Positions 7,439 to 18,627 of a stretch of DNA of 64,000 nucleotides are shown in pieces. Positions within the stretch are counted from its first letter, which is position 1, and every line of letters begins with the position of its first letter. The position numbers and the translations under genes were made by a program. The notes under the pieces were generated by a model. The model had not been told where the DNA came from. It ran no database searches and saw nothing but the letters and a program-made list of their open reading frames with translations. The stretch is from Clostridia bacterium (GTDB lineage Bacteria; Bacillota; Clostridia; Peptostreptococcales; Acidaminobacteraceae): the NCBI GenBank assembly GCA_014859095.1, contig JACUUV010000001.1:124001-188000 (forward strand), read 5' to 3'.

Positions 7439-8242
7439 TTAGTATATTTTTGTAGCATCAAATAAAATTGATGATTTGTACATGGAAACAGTCTTATTTG
7501 CTTGAAGATAAGCCGCATCATAAGTGGTATCCACTGTTTGCCATTTGCCGTTCACATAGACTTCATTCCATGCATGGTATTGATCTGGGATCAGATCTGA
7601 ATAACCTTTGACCAATTTTGTGGGCACTCCAACACTTCTTAACATTGAAGCAAACAACACAGAATAATCATAACAAATGCCTTTCTTGTCATAAAAAACT
7701 TGATTGATATTTGGAATATAACCAGAACTTAGTGTTGAGATCTTATCGTAATCATATTTATAATTACTTGTGATATAATCATAAATGACTTTGACCTTTG
7801 CAGAATCGGATGTCATACCTTTAGTCAATGATTTGGCTTTCTGGACTGCAGGTGATTCGTCGGACCAATTGACCTCTATTACTGATTGCAAGAATATTTC
7901 TTGTCCTGATGTTGCACCGAGGTTGACTGTTTTTCTGACAACTTCCTTATATTTGTTGCCTTCGACATTTTGCATAAGCCTTACGAGATAATCACCTCTA
8001 CCCATTTGAAGCGGGAAGTAATTGAGTGAACCATCATCGTTGACTGGATACATGTATCTATTGCCATCCTTTTCCACTAAAAAAAGCAGCTTGGATTCAT
8101 AGACTTGATTGATACTGAGACTCACCATTCCAGATTGAATGGCTTCAGTTCCGATATTGGCACCTGCTGAAACAGCAAATGAAGACATGGATGTAACGGT
8201 AATGACCAACGACAAAAAAAACATCGACAGTATTTTTTTCAT
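7439..8242 (-). CDS. secreted transglutaminase-like (cysteine protease fold) protein
   Basis: 267 residues from the ATG at 8242, preceded by GGGAG. A Sec signal peptide is clear (MKKILSMFFLSLVITVTSM, cleavage near AVSAGA). The C-terminal half has the transglutaminase core: GICYDYSVLFASMLR (catalytic Cys), YHAWNEV (His) and QTVDTTYD (Asp). There is no LPXTG motif or membrane anchor, so the protein is probably secreted or cell-wall associated by other means. It could act on peptidoglycan or as a protease or cross-linking enzyme. A cyclic-di-GMP-I riboswitch lies immediately upstream, so expression probably responds to this second messenger. Confidence 0.85.
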   Translation of the reverse strand: MKKILSMFFLSLVITVTSMSSFAVSAGANIGTEAIQSGMVSLSINQVYESKLLFLVEKDGNRYMYPVNDDGSLNYFPLQMGRGDYLVRLMQNVEGNKYKEVVRKTVNLGATSGQEIFLQSVIEVNWSDESPAVQKAKSLTKGMTSDSAKVKVIYDYITSNYKYDYDKISTLSSGYIPNINQVFYDKKGICYDYSVLFASMLRSVGVPTKLVKGYSDLIPDQYHAWNEVYVNGKWQTVDTTYDAAYLQANKTVSMYKSSILFDATKIY

Positions 8243-8252
8243 AGAAAAAACT

Positions 8253-8338
8253 CCCTTCGGTAGCACGGCTGCCATTCATTTCTGAAAGGCCCTATGGCTT
8301 TGCGTCCCATCGTTTCCAATGGTTTGCCTTTATCGGTG
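8253..8338 (-). ncRNA. cyclic di-GMP-I (GEMM-I) riboswitch
   Basis: On the minus strand the conserved elements appear in order: GGCAAACC, a CCATTG-GAAA-CGATGG hairpin with the GNRA tetraloop, GGGACGCAAAGCC, GGGCC, then ATGGCAGCCGTGCTACCG. These match the GEMM-I consensus, including the tetraloop-receptor hairpin. The 3' end runs into GAAGGGAG, which includes the ribosome binding site of the transglutaminase-like gene. The outer stem (CTTC with GAAG) overlaps that site and there is no terminator before the start codon, so control is probably at translation. Confidence 0.9.
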
Positions 8339-8441: not shown

Positions 8442-9188
8442 TTACGGCACCAAAATAGCGTGCACTATCAATCTGTGAGTCGGGTTTCTGACTGGATCGC
8501 AAGTGACTAGTGTTATGATTTGGTCCTTTCTGTTTCTGTAAAGAACCGTTATATCGGTTGGTTCTACTATATGAGTCTTATAAACCTTATATTTGTACGT
8601 TTTTGACGTGGTCACAACTTCAATTGTATCCCCGATGGTCATTTCATCGAGTCTGTTGAACATGATACCATACGATCGCCCTCTGTGACCTGCGATCCCC
8701 ACATTTCCAATTTCACCAAAGTTGGAGGTTCCGGCTATTGTTGCTGCACCACGATTAAGATTATACTCTGTAGCGCCGTTCAATATCGGCATGGTCAAAT
8801 CGATTTTAGGAATGATTATTTTCCCGAGAGCTCCAGAGTTTGAAGTCTGGATCGGGGTAGGAACCGTCTCAGGATCTGATTCACTGGCCTGTGGCCGCAC
8901 AACTGGATCCAAATAATCTTCCGCAGGTATGATTTCAATATCCGGATCGGGTTGCAATAAACCACTTTCATCTCGGTCGGCAAGTTCACTCTCCTGTTCA
9001 AAGAGAATCTGCAATGCCAGATAATCAGCTTCGGAAAGCGTTTCAGACTCTATCTGCAGTTCCAATTCCGACTCAAATCCCTCCAAAAGCTTATTCTCCC
9101 AGTACCATATATAGGTTCGGCTTGCCAATGGGTAAGCCGCAACAAGAATACCTAGTATGATCAATAAAGTTGAAATCCTTTTTTTCAT
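8442..9188 (-). CDS. class D sortase
   Basis: 248 residues. An N-terminal membrane helix (LLIILGILVAAYPLAS) is followed by an acidic linker of about 90 residues and the sortase barrel. Catalytic residues are all present: GIAGHRG (His), TLVTCDP (Cys) and PTHRLIVH (Arg). Class D sortases cleave LPXTG-like signals and attach proteins to the cell wall. No substrate with a sorting signal is encoded in this window. It lies upstream of, and in the same direction as, the riboswitch-controlled transglutaminase-like gene, about 200 bp apart. The acidic linker between anchor and barrel is longer than usual. Confidence 0.9.
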   Translation of the reverse strand: MKKRISTLLIILGILVAAYPLASRTYIWYWENKLLEGFESELELQIESETLSEADYLALQILFEQESELADRDESGLLQPDPDIEIIPAEDYLDPVVRPQASESDPETVPTPIQTSNSGALGKIIIPKIDLTMPILNGATEYNLNRGAATIAGTSNFGEIGNVGIAGHRGRSYGIMFNRLDEMTIGDTIEVVTTSKTYKYKVYKTHIVEPTDITVLYRNRKDQIITLVTCDPVRNPTHRLIVHAILVP

Positions 9189-9253: not shown

Positions 9254-9277
9254 AAAAACCCGTAAACATTACGAGTC
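9254..9277 (-). terminator. terminator of the hydrogenase-sensor operon
   Basis: On the minus strand ACTCGTAA-TG-TTTACGGGT forms an 8-bp stem (one G-T pair) followed by a run of T. It overlaps the stop codon of the 56-residue membrane protein. Confidence 0.8.
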
Positions 9278-9439
9278 TTTAAAATGTGTGACACCACCTA
9301 GAATAATCAAGACAACCCCTGAACCAATCAGAAATACGCCTAGAGCCGTTTTAACATAAGAATCCATAGCCATCACGTAGCCTGAAAGTATAAGAAAAGC
9401 AATTGTGATTAGAATAAGTTTGATCCCGAACTTTCTCAC
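9269..9439 (-). CDS. small two-helix membrane protein (56 aa) coupled to the HATPase gene
   Basis: Starts at a GTG that shares GTGA with the stop codon of the preceding gene; AAGGAG lies just upstream. The product has two hydrophobic segments (LILITIAFLILSGYV and LGVFLIGSGVVLIIL) separated by MAMDSYVKTA, and ends before an intrinsic terminator. I recognise no family. The four-base overlap makes translational coupling likely, so it is the last member of the sensory hydrogenase operon. It could be a membrane partner of the soluble signalling proteins, but this is inference. Confidence 0.65.
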   Translation of the reverse strand: MRKFGIKLILITIAFLILSGYVMAMDSYVKTALGVFLIGSGVVLIILGGVTHFKDS

Positions 9440-10002
9440 TTCAAACTCCTTTCGCTCCCTTCAGAATAAATCTCAGCTAGACCTTCAGCGACATAGTCTC
9501 TTATCCATCTGATCACATCATTGTTGCTGATCGGCACTCCATCAAGCAATTTCTTAATTTCCTTTGAGTTTAGTGTAAAAGTATATCCGTTGTAATCGTG
9601 TGTATAAATCAAATCCATTTCATCACAACCGTTCAAGATGGTGACGATTGTCTCGGGCATGTTACCGAGTGGCACTCGATCGATGTGGCTATGCTTGAAA
9701 ACAGCTACGATTTCGGTGCCCATTCCGAGTTGTGAGTTGATATTGAAATAACCTTCGCATTGTTCAGCTGAAGATTTGAAAAGAGGTATGCCGAGGCCAA
9801 CTTTTCTGGTTGTCCTGGTTGTATAAAATGGATCGACCACTTTCATTACTGTGTCTGAATCCATCCCGACACCATCATCTTTGATCTTTATAGTCAGTTG
9901 ATCATCGATTATGTTTTCAATAATTGCGATTCTTAATACATCAGCTTCAGCTTTGATTGAGTTTTGAGCTATGTCCAGTATGTGTAAAGATAATTCTTTC
10001 AC
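9436..10002 (-). CDS. histidine-kinase-like ATP-binding protein of a hydrogenase-sensor cassette
   Basis: 188 residues, GTG start with AGGAGG eight bases upstream. The N-terminal 110 residues are a HATPase_c (GHKL) domain: HILDIAQNSIKAEA (N box Asn), KDDGVGMD (G1), and VGLGIPLFK (G2). There is no dimerisation or His-phosphotransfer domain of the usual kind and no membrane segment. The C-terminal 70 residues form a separate small domain. Such stand-alone ATPases recur next to sensory [FeFe] hydrogenases and PHP proteins in Clostridia. It overlaps the PHP gene (GTGA) and the downstream small membrane gene. Confidence 0.8.
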   Translation of the reverse strand: MKELSLHILDIAQNSIKAEADVLRIAIIENIIDDQLTIKIKDDGVGMDSDTVMKVVDPFYTTRTTRKVGLGIPLFKSSAEQCEGYFNINSQLGMGTEIVAVFKHSHIDRVPLGNMPETIVTILNGCDEMDLIYTHDYNGYTFTLNSKEIKKLLDGVPISNNDVIRWIRDYVAEGLAEIYSEGSERSLK

Positions 10003-10706
10003 AACTTCACCCTCCTCTTCAGATGATTGATCAATGCATATGTTGTTTTTTCTGTTAGTTCCAGACTCTGGATTGGTTCACTGATCTGTCCCAATGAGTG
10101 TGCATCGGAATTGATGAGAACTCCATAATGACCCAATATGTCTTGAGGGACAGATGCATTCATGAAAACCTCGATAAATTTCAGATTCAAATCTTCTGGA
10201 ATGAAGCCCAAATTGGACAGCATGCTATTGGAGCTCTTATTGATATGAGCAGGAACAATGACTCCGCCGAATTTGTCGACAAGCGCATTCAATTGATCCA
10301 AGCTCAGATTCAATGATAATATAAGCGCCCAAGGATACTCTTCAATTATGCTGTCTTCCTCATCCATGACCCATTGATTGCCAAAACGCTCCGGACGATT
10401 GGGCAATTGAACCCTATGTGCATCCAACTCGTTTTCAAATGTATTCAAAGCTTCCATATCAGGAAAATAGCAAAGAATATGAACTTCTTCCTTTGTCTGT
10501 ACTTCCATCCCGGGAACCACTAGAATACCCAATTGCTGCGCAAGACCCCTGATCACATCATTGTTTTTACCGGTATTGTGATCCGTAATGGAAATGATGT
10601 CCAAACCTTTCAAATAGGCCATATTGGCGATATTGTTAGGTGTCATTTCATCACTGCCGCATGGGGACAGGCAAGAATGGATATGCAGATCATAAAACAA
10701 TTTCAC
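9999..10706 (-). CDS. PHP-domain phosphoesterase
   Basis: 235 residues beginning KLFYDLHIHSCLSPCG. The HxH of PHP motif 1 is clear, with ITDHN (motif 2), VVPGMEV (motif 3 region with Glu), VIVPAHIN and LINSDAHSL (late His and Asp-His). These are the metal ligands of PHP phosphoesterases of the PHP/TrpH type, which hydrolyse phosphate esters of nucleotides or sugars. Starts at a GTG overlapping the stop codon of the DRTGG gene. In this cassette it may reverse a phosphorylation or degrade a nucleotide signal; the substrate is unknown. Confidence 0.85.
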   Translation of the reverse strand: MKLFYDLHIHSCLSPCGSDEMTPNNIANMAYLKGLDIISITDHNTGKNNDVIRGLAQQLGILVVPGMEVQTKEEVHILCYFPDMEALNTFENELDAHRVQLPNRPERFGNQWVMDEEDSIIEEYPWALILSLNLSLDQLNALVDKFGGVIVPAHINKSSNSMLSNLGFIPEDLNLKFIEVFMNASVPQDILGHYGVLINSDAHSLGQISEPIQSLELTEKTTYALINHLKRRVKL

Positions 10707-11038
10707 TATTTCACGCCTTCTTCATATAAAATTTTAAAGATCTCATAAGCCTCAAGTGGTGTCGTCAGTAAAACAACATCTTGCTCATCGGCTTTTTCTA
10801 TGGTCTCTTTCTCCACAGAAATTCCTTCTGGAATGATGATGCAAGAAAAATCAAGCAGAGATGCCACAGCGAGAATATTGCTATGTGTCTGAACTGTAAT
10901 CCAAGCTGTATCGTGTTTGCCTTTGGCCATGACCCAACTCAACAAATCACATGAGTAGACATTCAAAATCTCTCTTTCCTGATTAGATCCAGAAATCTTA
11001 ACAAAACCATGTTTTTCAATTAAATCCCTAACCAACAT
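10706..11038 (-). CDS. DRTGG-domain protein, second copy of the cassette
   Basis: 110 residues from the ATG at 11038 (AAGGTGG upstream); the frame is open for four more codons from a GTG at 11050. The alpha/beta fold, with MLVRDLIEKHGFVKISGS then WVMAKGKHDTAWITVQ and SCIIIPEGI, is typical of DRTGG-related proteins, small ligand-binding domains found with CBS domains, phosphotransacetylases and hydrogenase regulators. It is only distantly similar to the other DRTGG protein at 12785-13132. The ligand is unknown. It stands between the sensory hydrogenase and the PHP gene with overlapping ends. Confidence 0.72.
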   Translation of the reverse strand: MLVRDLIEKHGFVKISGSNQEREILNVYSCDLLSWVMAKGKHDTAWITVQTHSNILAVASLLDFSCIIIPEGISVEKETIEKADEQDVVLLTTPLEAYEIFKILYEEGVK

Positions 11039-11052
11039 TTCCTTGACCACCT

Positions 11053-12291
11053 TTATATTTTATTTGTAAATATACAATCTTCAAATTTTGCGAATCCATT
11101 AACAATGTCTTCAGCCAGCACTCTACAAGTGGGAGCACCACAGGCGCCACAATTCACACCGGGTAATTTTTGAGTCAATTCCTCTATTTGCGACATTTTC
11201 TCAAGCGCTTTCTTGAAATCTTTGTCAAGCTTGAATACAGGCATCGGTTTGATGGGCAAATCCCATTCCATATTTTCTGGAGTGAGGTCAATATCAATAT
11301 TGATCGGTTCATTCATTCCGTATAGATTGGTGAGTTTTCTTACTCGATTCTTACCGATGAATGTGTTCTCAACATTAAGTGGTCCTCCGACACACCCGTT
11401 TATACAAGCATAACCTTCAAAGAAATCCAAGGATTCCAGTTTTCCCAGTTCCATTGATTCAAGCACCCTGATGACTTCCTCAATACCGTCGACTGCAATG
11501 TAATCTTCAATTTCCATGGCATAACTCTGCCCGCCGACACGAGCCCAACCGATTCCCTTTCCAGTGGATTTCTGAAACTGCTTTTTAGGTTCGACCCTAT
11601 CGATAATTTTCATGATCTTATAGTAAACTTCCTCAGTGGATATGGCTTCATCAATGAAAGATTTGGATAAACCTATCGGATTCTTGATACAGGTCACTTT
11701 GGCAGGACATGGCGTAATGTATATGATTCCTATTTCATCGTATTCATGACCTTCACTGAGCAAACGCTTTTTGATTGCTCTTGCAGCTATTTCCATAGGT
11801 GCTTCCAGCTTGATGATATGATCGATCAAAGCCGGAAATCTGATTTGAATAAGCCTCGTGATGACAGGACAGTACGTTGAAATCATAGGCTTGCTCAAAT
11901 GAGCTTTGTCCAAAATACTATTTTCATAGACAGACAACAGTTCAGCAGCATGTGCCAAATCGTAGACTTCATCAAATCCCAAATCCAATAAAGCGTTATA
12001 CACTGTGTTCATGTCATATTCAATTGGAAATTGACCATAAAATGAGATTGCAGGTAGCGCCACCGTATACTTGAACTTTTTAATTACTTCCAGATTACTA
12101 ACCAGCGCGCCTTTAGCATGATATGGGCATACCTTTAAACACTCGCCGCAATCAATGCAACGAGATTCGATTATTTTCGCCTTATGATCCACAATTCGGA
12201 TGGCTTGAGTTGGACATCGGTCCAAACAATGTGTGCATCCATTGCAATAATCTTTTTCAAGAACTACTGAATGCCAATAAGTCTTTTCCAT
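11053..12291 (-). CDS. sensory-type [FeFe] hydrogenase (HydS-like, group C/D)
   Basis: 412 residues; the ATG at 12291 is preceded by GGAGG. Domains: two [4Fe-4S] ferredoxin motifs (CNGCTHCLDRCP and CIDCGECLKVCP), then an H-cluster domain, then a C-terminal FeS motif (NCGACGAPTC...C). The H-cluster loops are present but altered: STYCPVIT (L1), ITPCPAKVTC (L2) and YACINGCVGGPL (L3). The four expected cluster-ligand Cys remain. The proton-relay Cys of L1 is Tyr, and the Glu after L2 is lost, as expected for low-turnover sensory hydrogenases. Neighbours encode ATPase and phosphoesterase proteins instead of redox partners, supporting a hydrogen- or redox-sensing role. Confidence 0.85.
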   Translation of the reverse strand: MEKTYWHSVVLEKDYCNGCTHCLDRCPTQAIRIVDHKAKIIESRCIDCGECLKVCPYHAKGALVSNLEVIKKFKYTVALPAISFYGQFPIEYDMNTVYNALLDLGFDEVYDLAHAAELLSVYENSILDKAHLSKPMISTYCPVITRLIQIRFPALIDHIIKLEAPMEIAARAIKKRLLSEGHEYDEIGIIYITPCPAKVTCIKNPIGLSKSFIDEAISTEEVYYKIMKIIDRVEPKKQFQKSTGKGIGWARVGGQSYAMEIEDYIAVDGIEEVIRVLESMELGKLESLDFFEGYACINGCVGGPLNVENTFIGKNRVRKLTNLYGMNEPINIDIDLTPENMEWDLPIKPMPVFKLDKDFKKALEKMSQIEELTQKLPGVNCGACGAPTCRVLAEDIVNGFAKFEDCIFTNKI

Positions 12292-12322
12292 CAATTCCTC
12301 CAATACTCAAATTTACCCTTTT

Positions 12323-12775
12323 TCAATTTTCGTACTTAACAATCATTTTTATGTTGGTTCCTGTCCCCATTTCTGATTCAATAATGAAAACATCACTCAT
12401 TTTTTTCATGTTGGGTAATCCCATACCAGCTCCGAATCCCATTTCTCTTGCAACATTAGTCGCTGTGGAGAAGCCTTGTGTCATAGCAAGATCAACATTT
12501 TCAATACCGGGTCCGCAGTCTTCCACATAGATTTCTATACAATCCGATTTAATAAACACCTCAATATTGCCTCCATTGGAATGGATCACGAGGTTGATCT
12601 CTGCTTCATATGTCGCAATGGCGACACGTCTGACGATATTGGCATCTATGGCTAGTTGTTTGAGCATTTTCTTGATCTTGCTCGAAGCCTCGCCCGCTCT
12701 GGAGAAATCGTCGTTTGCTACATCATAATGCAACTTTAGAGCTACATTTTTTTCATTTTTTTCATACGTGTTCAT
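12323..12775 (-). CDS. RsbW/RsbT-like anti-sigma-type ATP-binding protein
   Basis: 150 residues with a single HATPase_c_2 (serine kinase-type) domain: RVAIATYEAEINLVIHSNG (N box), VEDCGPGIE (G1) and GFGAGMGLPNMKKM (G2). Family members phosphorylate anti-sigma antagonists on Ser or bind sigma factors. No sigma factor or STAS antagonist is encoded nearby, so the partner may be another protein of this cassette. RBS GGGGA precedes the ATG. It is 10 bp downstream of the first DRTGG gene and 31 bp upstream of the sensory hydrogenase. Confidence 0.82.
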   Translation of the reverse strand: MNTYEKNEKNVALKLHYDVANDDFSRAGEASSKIKKMLKQLAIDANIVRRVAIATYEAEINLVIHSNGGNIEVFIKSDCIEIYVEDCGPGIENVDLAMTQGFSTATNVAREMGFGAGMGLPNMKKMSDVFIIESEMGTGTNIKMIVKYEN

Positions 12776-12784
12776 AGAGTCCCC

Positions 12785-13132
12785 TTAAATTTTTATGCCT
12801 CTAAGTCCATGTTGAAACAATATCCCTGAAACCGTAAATAACGATTCTCTCGTCATCATCAAAAGTATTTGCTTTTCTTCTGCCAGAGCAATGACCTCAT
12901 TGCATGGAGTCTTTCCACGAACAAACAAGATAACTTTCAAATCCAGCATTTCTGCTGTTCGTATGACTTGTTGATTGATGAGTCCTGTAATCAATAATGT
13001 ATCTTCTTCTACATAAGCAAGCACATCACTCATCAAATCCGATCCAAAGGCAGTGACTACTTCGTGTTCAATACCTTGCTTGAAAGCGAGAATCTCGGCG
13101 TTTACAACGTCTGCTATGTATTTTATCTGCAT
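12785..13132 (-). CDS. DRTGG-domain protein, first gene of the sensory hydrogenase operon
   Basis: 115 residues after a strong AGGAGG. The sequence MQIKYIADVVNAEILAFKQG with GSDLMSDVLAYVEEDTLLITG matches the DRTGG family seen next to clostridial hydrogenases. It lies at the head of an operon of six or seven genes running to 9269. A sigma-A promoter inside the 3' end of tmk and a Rex-like operator precede it, so the whole cassette is probably expressed when NADH is high. Ligand and partner are unknown. Confidence 0.78.
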   Translation of the reverse strand: MQIKYIADVVNAEILAFKQGIEHEVVTAFGSDLMSDVLAYVEEDTLLITGLINQQVIRTAEMLDLKVILFVRGKTPCNEVIALAEEKQILLMMTRESLFTVSGILFQHGLRGIKI

Positions 13133-13174: not shown

Positions 13175-13192
13175 AAGTTAATATTTTAACAA
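13175..13192. promoter_or_regulatory. Rex-type redox operator of the sensory hydrogenase operon
   Basis: On the minus strand TTGTTAA-AATA-TTAACTT, 16 of 18 positions matching the Firmicutes Rex consensus TTGTTAANNNNTTAACAA. It lies 11 bp downstream of the -10 box, so bound Rex would block early transcription. The same arrangement is seen upstream of hydABC. Confidence 0.75.
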
Positions 13193-13203
13193 TAATTTCT
13201 TAC

Positions 13204-13232
13204 ATTATAGCATCTTTAAAGGAATACTTCAA
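13204..13232 (-). promoter_or_regulatory. promoter of the sensory hydrogenase operon
   Basis: On the minus strand TTGAAG, a 17-bp spacer and TATAAT at 13209-13204. The -35 box lies inside the last codons of tmk. The Rex-like operator follows the -10 box. Confidence 0.65.
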
Positions 13233-13950: not shown

Positions 13951-15696
13951 TTATAATGGAAACTTTGCTCTCGATACATAGTGTGTATGCAAGAGTTCAT
14001 GAGCTTTATGACTGTTTGGTTTGCCAAGATACTCATCGTAAAGTTTTTTGATTTCTGGATTCTTGTGTGATTTTCTCACAGATTTCGATGCATCTTCAGA
14101 ATAAAGTGCCTTTGCTCTTTCTGCACGAATATCAATAACATTTCTTACATTTGCAGGTTGAATCGGCTGACCGCCACCGTTGACACATCCTCCTGGGCAA
14201 GCCATCACTTCAATGAAATGATAATCCGCTTCGCCTGATTTGATTTTTTCAAGCAAAACACCTGCATTGGTAGTATTATGCGCAACAGCTATTTTGACAT
14301 CCAATCCGCCAATATTCACAGTAGCTTCTTTGATGCCTTCGAGCCCTCTTACTGCAACATAATCCACATTCTCAAGGTCTTCACCTGAAAGGACATCTGC
14401 AACTGTTCGAAGAGCTGCTTCCATAACACCACCAGTAGCTCCGAAAATTACGCCAGCACCCGTGTAATCGCCCATGAATGCATCGAAAGCGCCTTCTTCA
14501 AGTTTATCAAACTCGAGTCTGGCTTCTTTGATCATGAGTGCAAGTTCTCTGGTTGTAATAGAAATATCAACATCTCTAATACCGTTGACTTCGAGTTCAG
14601 GTCTTACAATCTCCGATTTTTTAGATGTACAAGGCATTACAGAAACAACTACGATATCTTTAGAATCGATACCATGTTTTTCAGCATAGTAACTCTTGGC
14701 AAGCGCACCAAACATATTTTGAGGCGATTTACAAGAAGACAGATGCGGTAATAATTCAGGATATTGGAATTCGATGTATCTGACCCAACCTGGAGAACAA
14801 GATGTGATCATTGGCAATACGCCACCATTTTGAATTCGGCCGAGCAATTCTGTGCCTTCTTCCATTATGGTTACATCAGCTGCCCAGTTCGTGTCAAACA
14901 CTTTATCAAAGCCTAATTTTCTAAGCGCTGTAGCGAGTTTTCCAGTTACGTTAGTTCCTATTGGGAATCCGAATTCCTCACCAAGTGCCGCTCTTACAGC
15001 CGGAGCCGATTGAACAATGACATGCTTGGTCTTGTCTTCGAGGACATCCCACACCAATTGTGTGCTCGGCTTTTCAGACAATGCACCTACAGGACAAACT
15101 ACCATACATTGTCCACAATAGATACATGGTACATCTCTCATGCTCATGTCAAATGCTGGGCCAACAGTGGTCTCAAATCCACGGTTGGTGAAATCGAGGA
15201 TACCGATTCCCTGTACATTTTTACATGCGCTCACGCAACGTCCACAAAGGATACACTTGCTTGAGTCTCTGATGATTGATGGTGAAAGATCGTCATAGCT
15301 TACTTCTCTTTTTGCTCCTGAATATCTGATTTCACGAATCCCAAGTTCTTCAGATACACTTTGAAGTTCACAGTTCTTGCTTCTGACGCATGTTGTACAT
15401 TCTCTATTATGGTTTGCAAGCAAAAGTTCAACTGTACTCTTTCTCGCTTTTCTGACTCTATTGCTGTTTGTGTTGATGACCATGCCTTCTCTTACTGGAA
15501 GAACACATGATGCCTGAAGCGCTCTTGCTCCTTCAACTTCAACCACACAAACTCGGCAAGCGCCTACTTCATTGATATCTTTTAGGAAACAAAGTGTTGG
15601 GATATCAATACCTACAGTTCTGGCAGCTTCTAAAACCGTCAACTCTTTTGGTACTTCATACTGGGTACCGTTTATGGATAAAGATACGTTACTCAC
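13951..15696 (-). CDS. hydA: NADH/ferredoxin-dependent [FeFe] hydrogenase, catalytic subunit
   Basis: 581 residues from a GTG at 15696 with AGAGGTG upstream. Order of domains: [2Fe-2S] plant-type (CRVCVVEVEG and surrounding Cys), His/Cys FeS segment (HNRECTTCVRSKNCELQ), two [4Fe-4S] motifs (CILCGRCVSAC and CIYCGQCMVVCP), then the H-cluster domain with TSCSPGW (L1), MPCTSKKSE (L2) and MACPGGCVNGGGQP (L3). L1 has Ser where many enzymes have the second Cys of TSCCP, with an additional Cys 25 residues later in SSCKSPQN. This belongs to the group A enzymes that confurcate electrons from NADH and reduced ferredoxin to protons or bifurcate them from H2. Last gene of the operon hydC-ferredoxin-hydB-hydA. 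Confidence 0.92.
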   Translation of the reverse strand: MSNVSLSINGTQYEVPKELTVLEAARTVGIDIPTLCFLKDINEVGACRVCVVEVEGARALQASCVLPVREGMVINTNSNRVRKARKSTVELLLANHNRECTTCVRSKNCELQSVSEELGIREIRYSGAKREVSYDDLSPSIIRDSSKCILCGRCVSACKNVQGIGILDFTNRGFETTVGPAFDMSMRDVPCIYCGQCMVVCPVGALSEKPSTQLVWDVLEDKTKHVIVQSAPAVRAALGEEFGFPIGTNVTGKLATALRKLGFDKVFDTNWAADVTIMEEGTELLGRIQNGGVLPMITSCSPGWVRYIEFQYPELLPHLSSCKSPQNMFGALAKSYYAEKHGIDSKDIVVVSVMPCTSKKSEIVRPELEVNGIRDVDISITTRELALMIKEARLEFDKLEEGAFDAFMGDYTGAGVIFGATGGVMEAALRTVADVLSGEDLENVDYVAVRGLEGIKEATVNIGGLDVKIAVAHNTTNAGVLLEKIKSGEADYHFIEVMACPGGCVNGGGQPIQPANVRNVIDIRAERAKALYSEDASKSVRKSHKNPEIKKLYDEYLGKPNSHKAHELLHTHYVSRAKFPL

Positions 15697-15738: not shown

Positions 15739-17538
15739 CTACTGTTTAACAATAACTTTCTTCGGACATTTAGGGATACAAGCGCCACATTTGATACAGA
15801 TTGCCTGATCAATCACGTGTTGTTGCTTGACTTCACCGCTGATTGCATCAACAGGACAAACTCTCTTACAAGCTGTACAACCGATACATCCCTCGTCTAA
15901 AATGACGATTGACAATAAGTCTTGACACATGCCTGCAGGACATTTTTTGTCTACAACGTGAGCAAGATACTCATCCTTGAAATACTTAAGTGTCGACAAT
16001 ACTGGATTTGGAGCAGTTTGACCCAATCCGCAAAGTGACGAATCTTTGATTGTGTATGCCAATTCTTCCAATTGCTCAAGGTCTGCCATGGTGCCGGCTC
16101 CTGAAGTGATTCTTTCCAGAATCTCGAGCATTCTTTTGGTACCTTCTCTACATGGAACACATTTACCACATGATTCATCCACTGTGAAATCAAGGAAAAA
16201 TCTTGCGAAGTCCACCATACAGTTTGTGTCATCAACGACAATCATACCACCGGATCCCATCATGGAGCCAAGTGCTGTAAGCGTATCAAAGTCTATTGGA
16301 GTATCGAGATGATCCACTGTCAAACAACCACCTGATGGACCACCGGTTTGAACCGCTTTGAAGGCTCTGCCGTTTGGAATACCACCACCGATATCATAGA
16401 TAACTTCTCTGAGTGTTGTACCCATCGGAATTTCCACAAGTCCTGTATTGTTGATCTTTCCACCTAATGCGAAAACTTTTGTGCCAGGAGATTTTTCAGT
16501 ACCAAATGATGTGAACCAATCTGCACCTTTTAAAATAATTTGTGCTACTGATGCATATGTTTCAACGTTATTGATTACAGTTGGCTTTCCGAAAATACCT
16601 TTTTCTGCCGGGAATGGTGGCTTTGGTCTAGGCATTCCTCGTTCGCCCTCTATTGATGCGATCAATGCCGTTTCTTCACCACATACGAACGCTCCAGCGC
16701 CTAATCGGATTTCCATGTCGAAATTGAAGTCCGTATCGAAAATCCTCTCACCCAAAAGTCCCATTTCTTTAGCTTGTGCAATCGCTATACCGAGTCTTTT
16801 AACCGCTATAGGATACTCCGCACGGATATATACATATCCTTTTTCAGCTCCGATGGCATATGCAGCAATTGCCATGGCTTCTATTATTGAGTGTGGATCT
16901 CCTTCTAGGACCGAACGGTCCATAAATGCTCCCGGGTCACCCTCGTCAGCATTACATGCCACATATTTGATGTCGCCTTTTGATTTCCTGGTAAATTCCC
17001 ATTTGAGTCCAGTCGGGAAACCACCGCCGCCTCTACCTCTGAGTCCGGATTTTTTGATTTCATTGATGACATCTTCCGGTTTCATTTGAGTTAGTGCTTT
17101 ACCAAGTGCCTGATAACCGTCAAAAGCGATATAATCATCGATGACTTCAGGATTGATCACACCACAGTTTTGAAGAACGACACGTCTTTGTTTTTTATAG
17201 AAAGTAACATCGTTGATAGATGTTAGAATATCAGTCACATCAGCTGATTTATCAACAAACAGCAAATCTTTTACAATTCTACCTTTTAAAAGATGCTCAT
17301 CTACAATTCTCTCGACATCTTTTTGCTCAATTCTTGAATAAAACGTTCCCTCAGGGTAAACGATACAAATTGGACCCGCTTCACAAAGTCCGAAACAACC
17401 CGTTCTTACTACCTTGACTTCTTTGTCCAGGCTTCTTTCCTTCAATGCTTGATTGAACATTTCTTCTATGGTCAACGATCCTGAAGAAACACAGCCTGTA
17501 CCGCCACAAACAAGCACATGCGCTCTATAAAAATCCAT
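15739..17538 (-). CDS. hydB: electron-bifurcating hydrogenase subunit, NuoF-like NADH/FMN protein
   Basis: 599 residues. N-terminal thioredoxin-like [2Fe-2S] domain (CGGTGCVSSG, CFGLCEAGP), then the NuoF core with the glycine-rich flavin/NAD loop (GLRGRGGGGFPTGLKW and ACNADEGDPGAFMDR), a SLBB-like segment, the [4Fe-4S] motif CGKCVPCREG, and a C-terminal pair of ferredoxin clusters (CIGCTACKRVCP and CIKCGACIPKCP). This is the diaphorase subunit where NAD(H) and the bifurcating flavin meet. GGAGG precedes the ATG, 28 bp after the small ferredoxin gene. Confidence 0.94.
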   Translation of the reverse strand: MDFYRAHVLVCGGTGCVSSGSLTIEEMFNQALKERSLDKEVKVVRTGCFGLCEAGPICIVYPEGTFYSRIEQKDVERIVDEHLLKGRIVKDLLFVDKSADVTDILTSINDVTFYKKQRRVVLQNCGVINPEVIDDYIAFDGYQALGKALTQMKPEDVINEIKKSGLRGRGGGGFPTGLKWEFTRKSKGDIKYVACNADEGDPGAFMDRSVLEGDPHSIIEAMAIAAYAIGAEKGYVYIRAEYPIAVKRLGIAIAQAKEMGLLGERIFDTDFNFDMEIRLGAGAFVCGEETALIASIEGERGMPRPKPPFPAEKGIFGKPTVINNVETYASVAQIILKGADWFTSFGTEKSPGTKVFALGGKINNTGLVEIPMGTTLREVIYDIGGGIPNGRAFKAVQTGGPSGGCLTVDHLDTPIDFDTLTALGSMMGSGGMIVVDDTNCMVDFARFFLDFTVDESCGKCVPCREGTKRMLEILERITSGAGTMADLEQLEELAYTIKDSSLCGLGQTAPNPVLSTLKYFKDEYLAHVVDKKCPAGMCQDLLSIVILDEGCIGCTACKRVCPVDAISGEVKQQHVIDQAICIKCGACIPKCPKKVIVKQ

Positions 17539-17566: not shown

Positions 17567-17932
17567 CTATTCGACTGCACCGATAGTAAATTCTTTGACT
17601 ATGTTTCCGTTAACGATGTGTTCAGCAATGATTCTTCTTGCTTTCTCTTCAGTCAACTCAACATAAGTCACTTTCTCTTCGCCTTCTTTGTATACTTCGA
17701 TCAATGGTTCCAATCTGCATACGCCGATACATCCGGTTTGAGTTATTGTCACATCACTAAGTCCTCTTTTTTGGGCTTCATCCATAAGAGCAGTCAAGAC
17801 TGGTCTGGCTCCCGCCGCGATTCCGCAAGTTGCCATGCCTACTACGATTCTCGTACCGACACGTTCTTTTCTGATATCCACTTTTTTAATTGCTTCATCT
17901 CTTAATTTTGAAAGTTCCGCTAATGATTTCAT
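17567..17932 (-). CDS. small thioredoxin-like [2Fe-2S] ferredoxin of the hydrogenase operon
   Basis: 121 residues with GMATCGIAAGARPV and QTGCIGVCRLEP, the four-Cys pattern of thioredoxin-fold [2Fe-2S] domains (C-x-n-C...C-x3-C). An identical gene order is common in Clostridia and Thermotogae hyd operons, where it is sometimes called HydD. It may be an extra electron carrier or an assembly partner; its exact role is not settled. Eighteen base pairs downstream of hydC. Confidence 0.85.
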   Translation of the reverse strand: MKSLAELSKLRDEAIKKVDIRKERVGTRIVVGMATCGIAAGARPVLTALMDEAQKRGLSDVTITQTGCIGVCRLEPLIEVYKEGEEKVTYVELTEEKARRIIAEHIVNGNIVKEFTIGAVE

Positions 17933-17949: not shown

Positions 17950-18429
17950 CTAACCGTTATACTTTTGGATAATTCCAGGAATATCCGCGACAACAAGTCT
18001 GCCATATACATCTTCGTTCACTGTCAATACAGGTGCGAGTCCGCAAGCTCCGATACAACGGGTAGCTTCAAGCGAATATTTACCGTCCAAAGAAGTTTTT
18101 CCAACTCCAACTCCAGTCAATTCAACGACTTTGTCGATAAGTTGTTGCGCGCCTCTTACATAGCATGCCGTTCCTAGACATAAGCTGATCAGATAATCGC
18201 CTTTAGGCTCAAGAGTAAACTGTGAGTAAAAAGTCACCACACCATAAATCTCTGCCAAAGGTACTTTCATTTTTTCAGAAATTGTTTTTTGCACTTCAAG
18301 TGGAATCGCTCCGAAAATATGCTGCGCTTCATGAAGAATTGGCATCAAAGGGCCTTGCATGTCTTTGTGTGATTCAATGACTTCATGAAGTTTTGCAAAA
18401 TTTTCTTCAGTTAGATAGTTCTTGGTCAT
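17950..18429 (-). CDS. hydC: electron-bifurcating hydrogenase subunit, NuoE-like
   Basis: 159 residues of the NuoE family: a helical N-terminal domain with HEAQHIFGAIPLEVQ, GVVTFYSQF, then the thioredoxin-like [2Fe-2S] motif CLGTACYVRG...CIGACGLAP. It docks on HydB and supplies a [2Fe-2S] cluster. First gene of the operon, with GGAGG before the ATG and a long leader that carries two hairpins and a Rex-like operator. Confidence 0.93.
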   Translation of the reverse strand: MTKNYLTEENFAKLHEVIESHKDMQGPLMPILHEAQHIFGAIPLEVQKTISEKMKVPLAEIYGVVTFYSQFTLEPKGDYLISLCLGTACYVRGAQQLIDKVVELTGVGVGKTSLDGKYSLEATRCIGACGLAPVLTVNEDVYGRLVVADIPGIIQKYNG

Positions 18430-18519: not shown

Positions 18520-18537
18520 TTGTTAAGAAATTAACTC
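18520..18537. promoter_or_regulatory. Rex-type redox operator of hydABC
   Basis: On the minus strand GAGTTAA-TTTC-TTAACAA, 16 of 18 positions matching TTGTTAANNNNTTAACAA. It lies 10 bp downstream of the -10 box. Rex releases DNA when NADH rises relative to NAD, so the hydrogenase would be induced when reducing equivalents need disposal. Confidence 0.78.
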
Positions 18538-18547
18538 ATCAACTACG

Positions 18548-18576
18548 ATTATAACATAGTCACTTTTGTTTGTATA
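18548..18576 (-). promoter_or_regulatory. promoter of hydABC
   Basis: A perfect TATAAT is read on the minus strand at 18553-18548. The -35 region 17 bp away is poor (TATACA at 18576-18571), which is compatible with a regulated promoter. Confidence 0.6.
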
Positions 18577-18627
18577 GTCTTTAACAATCTTTTCTATTGC
18601 ATAATTTTTTGCAATAATCAAAGCAAA

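Follow-up and report, generated by a model that had tools for sequence, protein, structure and literature searches.

The nearest described relatives of the system analyzed here are the M2e-type (group D) [FeFe] hydrogenases, HydS. According to a 2012 survey of H2- and ethanol-producing bacteria, M2e sensory hydrogenases, exemplified by Cthe_0335 and Athe_1292, precede bifurcating hydrogenases and have a histidine/serine kinase nearby (PMC3561251), and the same arrangement was noted in Thermoanaerobacter (PMC3608648), so the vicinity of M2e hydS genes to kinases and bifurcating hydrogenases is already published. M2e HydS was reported to have a higher H2 affinity and a stabilized Hred state (PMC8163306), and one characterized M2e enzyme shows low activity (PMC6984386, PMC8163306). 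That M2e enzymes encoded beside kinases act as sensors was proposed previously (PMC8163306, PMC3561251), while the way in which the signal is transduced from HydS was posed as a question (PMC8163306) and the limited knowledge of the M2e functional complex was pointed out (PMC13104023). In this work, a hydS-centered gene cassette is described from a 64,000-bp stretch of DNA (hereafter the window; positions 124,001 to 188,000 of contig JACUUV010000001.1, assembly GCA_014859095.1) of a Clostridia bacterium belonging to the Acidaminobacteraceae.

The cassette occupies positions 13132 to 9269 on the reverse strand. It opens with DRTGG-1, a protein of 115 aa (12785..13132; PF07085, 30.3 bits), followed by an RsbW/SpoIIAB-like GHKL ATPase, a putative serine kinase (12323..12775; PF13581, 34.7 bits; TIGR01925 (spIIAB), 55.6 bits), the M2e-type HydS (11053..12291; PF02906, 105 bits, with PF04060 at the C-terminus and Fer4), the 114-aa DRTGG-2 (10706..11050; PF07085, 20.3 bits, below the Pfam cut-off), a PHP-family metallophosphoesterase (9999..10706; PF02811, 22.5 bits, also below cut-off, and NCBIfam PHP models) and HATPase-2, a stand-alone GHKL ATPase with an 80-aa C-terminal extension (9436..10002; PF02518, 49.6 bits). 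The last gene codes for a 56-aa hydrophobic protein (9269..9439), its open reading frame overlapping that of HATPase-2; it has no Pfam matches, its homologues are confined to part of the lineage, and it is considered an optional member. The first two gaps are 9 and 31 nt long, and thereafter the genes are separated by no more than 14 nt or overlap by 1–4 nt. Coordinates, domain matches and gaps of at most 31 nt thus bear out the order of seven tightly packed genes given in an earlier sequence-only reading of this DNA. The seven genes probably form a single operon, since they have their own promoter (13204..13232, reverse strand; TTGAAG-17-TATAAT with an extended -10 TG) and their own intrinsic terminator (9254..9280, reverse strand), the latter having been overlooked in that reading.

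The conservation of the cassette was assessed in a scan of named genomes, which yielded 80 loci, 66 of them with sufficient flanks, the window included, and in a further sample of 398 Bacillota genomes. The full core DRTGG-RsbW-HydS-DRTGG-PHP is present in 51 of the 66 loci, and in 20 of these 51 the order continues directly into nuoE, HATPase-2, Fd2, hydB and hydA, as in the Thermoanaerobacter wiegelii locus (L084) with its ten-gene order; at other loci the cassette lies beside hyd operons or is divergent from them. In most relatives HATPase-2 is encoded between nuoE and Fd2 and is therefore usually a hyd-operon gene, a location missed by the sequence-only reading; the window and its relatives have it at the cassette end instead. 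Among the 398 Bacillota genomes HydS was found in 160, the RsbW-like gene in 169 and the PHP gene in 155, with the RsbW-like gene present in 158 of the 160 HydS genomes (Fisher p about 1e-94) and the PHP gene in 149 of the 160 (Fisher p about 5e-87), although these p values overstate the certainty because the genomes are not independent. The recurrence of the same genes in the same order in other members of the phylum sets the arrangement far apart from chance.

Natural fusions, counted as open frames without stops, join neighboring members of the set: DRTGG-1 with RsbW (L191, L197, L199, L257), RsbW with HydS in two genera (L252/L273 and L275), HydS with DRTGG-2, again in two genera (L221/L268 and L267), PHP with HATPase-2 (L036/L080 and L187-L190) and HATPase-2 with Fd2 (L224). 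Judging by these gene structures, the parts of the cassette very likely work as one assembly. No other evidence speaks as strongly for HydS being coupled, physically or functionally, to the kinase and the DRTGG proteins, or for PHP being coupled in this way to HATPase-2 and the hydrogenase-linked 2Fe2S protein. The proposal of the sequence-only reading that the genes belong to a single system centered on a sensory-type hydrogenase finds strong support in the conserved order, the co-occurrence and the fusions.

HydS starts with the ATG at 12291, preceded by GGAGG. It carries a pair of [4Fe4S] motifs at the N-terminus, then the H-domain and, at the C-terminus, a Cx2Cx4Cx16C motif, with the small-subunit domain absent; the same layout has been published for enzymes of the M2e type or group D (PMC6984386, PMC8163306). 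The H-cluster ligands C145, C199, C300 and C304 (numbered from the TTG at 12303) are retained, as are all four cysteines in 88 of 88 cassette homologues. The residue preceding C145, at the C299 proton-relay position, is Tyr in the window and Ala in 50 of the 88 homologues; the Glu after L2 is absent (TPCPAKVTC), so that the residues read earlier from the sequence alone were found as described. The Met353 position is taken by Thr (TPC), Ser or Thr being expected in group D/M2e enzymes. The Pfam search gave no match to PAS, the C-terminal domain of the sensory group C enzymes. By domain layout and by H-cluster and proton-relay residues, HydS is assigned to group D (M2e type). It shares 51% identity with the T. 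wiegelii HydS and resembles TamHydS of T. mathranii (PMC8163306, PMC13104023) in its C-terminal Cx2Cx4Cx16C layout, the absence of PAS, the loss of the proton-relay Cys and the proximity of genes for a kinase-like ATPase and a bifurcating hydrogenase. TamHydS was described as flanked by an ATPase and an 'AraC regulator' (PMC8163306). In T. wiegelii, hydS lies between the gene for the RsbW-like ATPase and that for a DRTGG protein, in which no DNA-binding domain was detected, so by analogy the 'AraC' annotation is probably mistaken.

More distant HydS genes from the same taxonomic order are located outside any cassette. Five of the non-cassette M2e-like genes (L053, L058, L065, L069, L052) lie directly or nearly directly upstream of nqrBCDEF-like genes, at the place of nqrA, and the PF05896 search of some of these genomes found no NqrA and in others only weak matches; such loci possibly encode a hydrogenase-linked Nqr complex. 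Non-cassette HydS genes also repeatedly have a same-strand NAD kinase gene as their neighbor (L053, L055, L058, L059, L069, L071, L073 and others).

The RsbW-like protein scores 55.6 bits against the 135-bit cut-off of TIGR01925, and it falls outside the SpoIIAB/RsbW anti-sigma family by this measure, yet the structures matched in a profile search were all SpoIIAB (E about 3e-10). Its N box, YEAEIN, aligns with SEAVTN of SpoIIAB. In SpoIIAB, the N-box Glu and Asn are the mark of a serine kinase. Both residues (E57, N61) are invariant in 88 of 88 members, and the G1 and G2 boxes (D86, G88, G90, G115, G117, G119) are invariant or nearly so, hence on residue grounds the protein is a predicted GHKL serine kinase. 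It shares with the SpoIIAB/RsbW kinases the GHKL fold, the E-x3-N N box and the stand-alone form but differs from them in scoring below the family cut-off, in having no STAS partner or sigma factor at the locus and in being linked or fused to HydS and DRTGG. In several lineages an N-terminal CBS pair is fused to it, which points to nucleotide control. The putative metal ligands of the PHP protein (H8, H10, D42, H43, E68, H76, H154, D201, H203) are conserved in 78 members, and its matches include a nucleoside bisphosphate phosphatase, an exoribonuclease and EndoQ. For the phosphorylation pathway suggested by the sequence-only reading, the preserved active-site residues of the kinase type and the preserved metal ligands of PHP provide only indirect support. 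The AlphaFold 2 model of HATPase-2 (predicted local distance difference test, pLDDT, 93) matches kinase CA domains and MutL in Foldseek, and its D10-x3-N14 motif is invariant. No HisKA or receiver domain was found among the cassette proteins in the Pfam search, so the cassette does not qualify as a two-component system.

The AlphaFold 2 model of DRTGG-1 (pLDDT 97.4) has as its top Foldseek match the CBS-DRTGG region of the C. perfringens pyrophosphatase (E 1.4e-7) and also matches HPr kinase N domains. DRTGG-2, for which the ATG at 11038 is the probable start, has an orthologue in L084 that passes the Pfam cut-off with 29.1 bits, so family membership is established by score and fold for DRTGG-1 and through this orthologue for DRTGG-2. 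D32, M34 and S35 of DRTGG-1 are invariant across 82 loci, with Ser35 sitting at a helix start, while DRTGG-2 carries a DLLS motif and its S38 is invariant in 81 of 81 sequences. The cassette proteins share the DRTGG fold with the CBS-DRTGG region of the clostridial pyrophosphatase (3l2b, 3l31), and CBS pairs recur in some cassettes; unlike that region, they are stand-alone, lack an enzyme domain and possess the conserved DL(M/L)S motif. At eight loci (L043, L044, L056, L064, L085, L106, L107, L123), a DRTGG gene and a HydS gene form a pair separated by 11–14 nt in the absence of the kinase; in several of these the next gene belongs to the Asp/Glu racemase family.

Upstream of the cassette, on the same strand, the window carries a hyd operon of hydC/nuoE (17950..18429; NuoE-like subunit of the bifurcating hydrogenase; PF01257, 156.6 bits), Fd2, coding for a thioredoxin-like [2Fe2S] protein (17567..17932; NF041612, 48.6 bits), hydB (15739..17538; NuoF-like subunit, an open reading frame recognized by its conserved place in the operon) and hydA (13951..15696; catalytic [FeFe] hydrogenase; NF040763, 922.6 bits), then a terminator and tmk. 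The hyd promoter lies at 18576-18548. With the published Rex consensus TTGTTAANNNNTTAACAA (PMC8457756, citing Ravcheev 2012), a Rex-like operator, TTGTTAA-AATA-TTAACTT, was located at 13175..13192, just downstream of the cassette -10, and two others at 18520..18537, upstream of the hyd operon, and 18570..18587, overlapping the -35 of the hyd promoter, each with 2 mismatches. All three had escaped the sequence-only reading. Over the whole window, 7 matches with up to 3 mismatches were found against 7.6 expected, not above chance, so the argument for Rex rests on position and conservation. Sites with up to 2 mismatches occur in 18 of 70 cassette upstream regions (shuffles about 0.5%) and in 21 of 50 nuoE upstream regions (shuffles about 1%), and in none of the three sets of control regions (0/88, 0/50, 0/32). 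The genome encodes Rex (236 bits), and at eight loci (L191, L196, L197, L199, L203, L205, L218, L257) the cassette is immediately preceded by a rex gene; these loci belong to other families only, adjacency in the named set of 80 loci being 0/73. Rex binding upstream of orthologous hyd operons has been published (PMC6391272, PMC8457756), and no report of Rex binding at the HydS cassette itself was found in the literature searched. The earlier statement that the locus has no regulator and no evident output holds within the window, but it has to be set against the Rex-like operators before the cassette and hydABC, the rex genes beside the cassettes of some relatives and the bifurcating hydrogenase as the usual neighbor.

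The reading to which we give roughly even chances is a phosphorylation switch that responds to H2 or redox state and controls the electron-bifurcating HydABC or, if rnf genes are the neighbors, Rnf. HydS would bind H2 or equilibrate with ferredoxin, and its redox state would set the activity of the bound RsbW-like serine kinase, with the two DRTGG proteins as regulatory, possibly nucleotide-responsive, subunits. The phosphate would be removed by the PHP enzyme, and HATPase-2, which pairs with PHP and with the 2Fe2S protein encoded in the hyd operon, would pass the signal on to HydABC (to Rnf in those lineages whose cassette lies beside rnf). Rex would adjust the amounts of sensor and hydrogenase according to NADH. 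The analysis itself documents a conserved unit with gene fusions, preserved active sites and Rex-like operators; the sensing of H2, the phosphotransfer and its direction, and HydABC as the target we infer. The broader claim, namely that anaerobes have here a widespread undescribed class of H2/redox signaling, with a SpoIIAB-type serine kinase under the direct control of an [FeFe] hydrogenase and, together with DRTGG proteins and a PHP protein phosphatase, regulating the bifurcating hydrogenase or Rnf post-translationally, is somewhat less likely than not.

Several observations weigh against such a switch. HydS is absent from otherwise complete cassettes (L193, L194, L203-L205) that comprise DRTGG, RsbW extended at its N-terminus (by CBS in the single case scanned), DRTGG, PHP and HATPase-2, followed in L203 by nuoE-Fd2-hydB, which suggests that the kinase/DRTGG/PHP core can take inputs besides HydS, so H2 is not the sole input. 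At L039, L082, L195 and L238 the cassette adjoins rnf instead of hyd (RnfC confirmed), so HydABC is not the sole possible target. HATPase-2 carries Asp at the expected catalytic Glu and has no phospho-acceptor domain. Rex-like sites with up to 2 mismatches are rare in a family-level sample (2/52 and 3/42); being strong in the lineage of the window and weak in that sample, the operators appear lineage-specific, and a universal Rex control of the cassette was rejected. Ser35 and Ser38 of the DRTGG proteins were considered as phospho-acceptors by analogy with RsbV/SpoIIAA, but they are equally invariant in the eight kinase-less DRTGG-HydS pairs and cannot serve as evidence of phosphorylation; the serine is probably structural or ligand-binding.

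The same serine bears on partner switching, in which the RsbW-like protein would be an anti-sigma or anti-regulator kinase holding an unlinked sigma factor or Rex, with DRTGG proteins in place of STAS antagonists. The nearest solved relatives of the kinase are all SpoIIAB, the kinase, small partner and phosphatase resemble in kind the triad of RsbW, RsbV and phosphatase, and rex adjoins the cassette in some genomes, but the RsbV-parallel serine persists without the kinase, rex adjacency is nil in the named set, and neither a STAS antagonist nor a sigma factor gene was seen at the window locus or in the scanned flanks, which makes this explanation unlikely. It is also rather improbable that the ATPases are conformational switches and not protein kinases, the DRTGG and CBS domains binding adenine nucleotides and PHP hydrolyzing a second messenger: the likeness of the DRTGG fold to the regulatory region of the pyrophosphatase, the CBS pairs fused to RsbW and the nucleotide-directed enzymes among the PHP matches would fit, but the kinase-type N box is invariant and the set includes no synthetase or cyclase.

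Quite doubtful is an assembly or chaperone function, with the ATPases, DRTGG proteins and PHP assembling or protecting HydABC and HydS, and HydS itself a low-activity catalyst. The place of HATPase-2 inside the hyd operon in most relatives and its single fusion to Fd2 agree with it; on the other side stand the missing group A proton-relay residue of HydS, the low activity of one characterized M2e enzyme (PMC6984386, PMC8163306) and a second HydA-type gene in the window genome, distant from the cassette.

The search for gene order and for joint occurrence of HydS, DRTGG and ATPase genes that had been called for earlier has thus shown the arrangement to recur across Bacillota. In the literature searched, mostly without subscription papers, the full cassette, the link between DRTGG and hydrogenase, the fusions and the cassette Rex sites are undescribed; in the accessible part of the 2012 survey (PMC3561251), the M2e entries include neither DRTGG/PHP genes nor fusions or co-occurrence counts. 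Likely signaling partners and interfaces of the M2e hydrogenase sensor can now be named from the conserved set and its natural fusions. As the system is present in about 40% of the sampled Bacillota genomes, mostly next to hydABC and in some cases next to rnf, it would matter for the way in which fermenters and the anaerobes of the gut or rumen match electron flow to H2 pressure.

Elsewhere in the window, a c-di-GMP-I-GGC riboswitch (8255-8337, reverse strand) immediately precedes a gene for a secreted transglutaminase-like protein (7439-8275), and a sortase-like gene (8442-9188) adjoins this pair.

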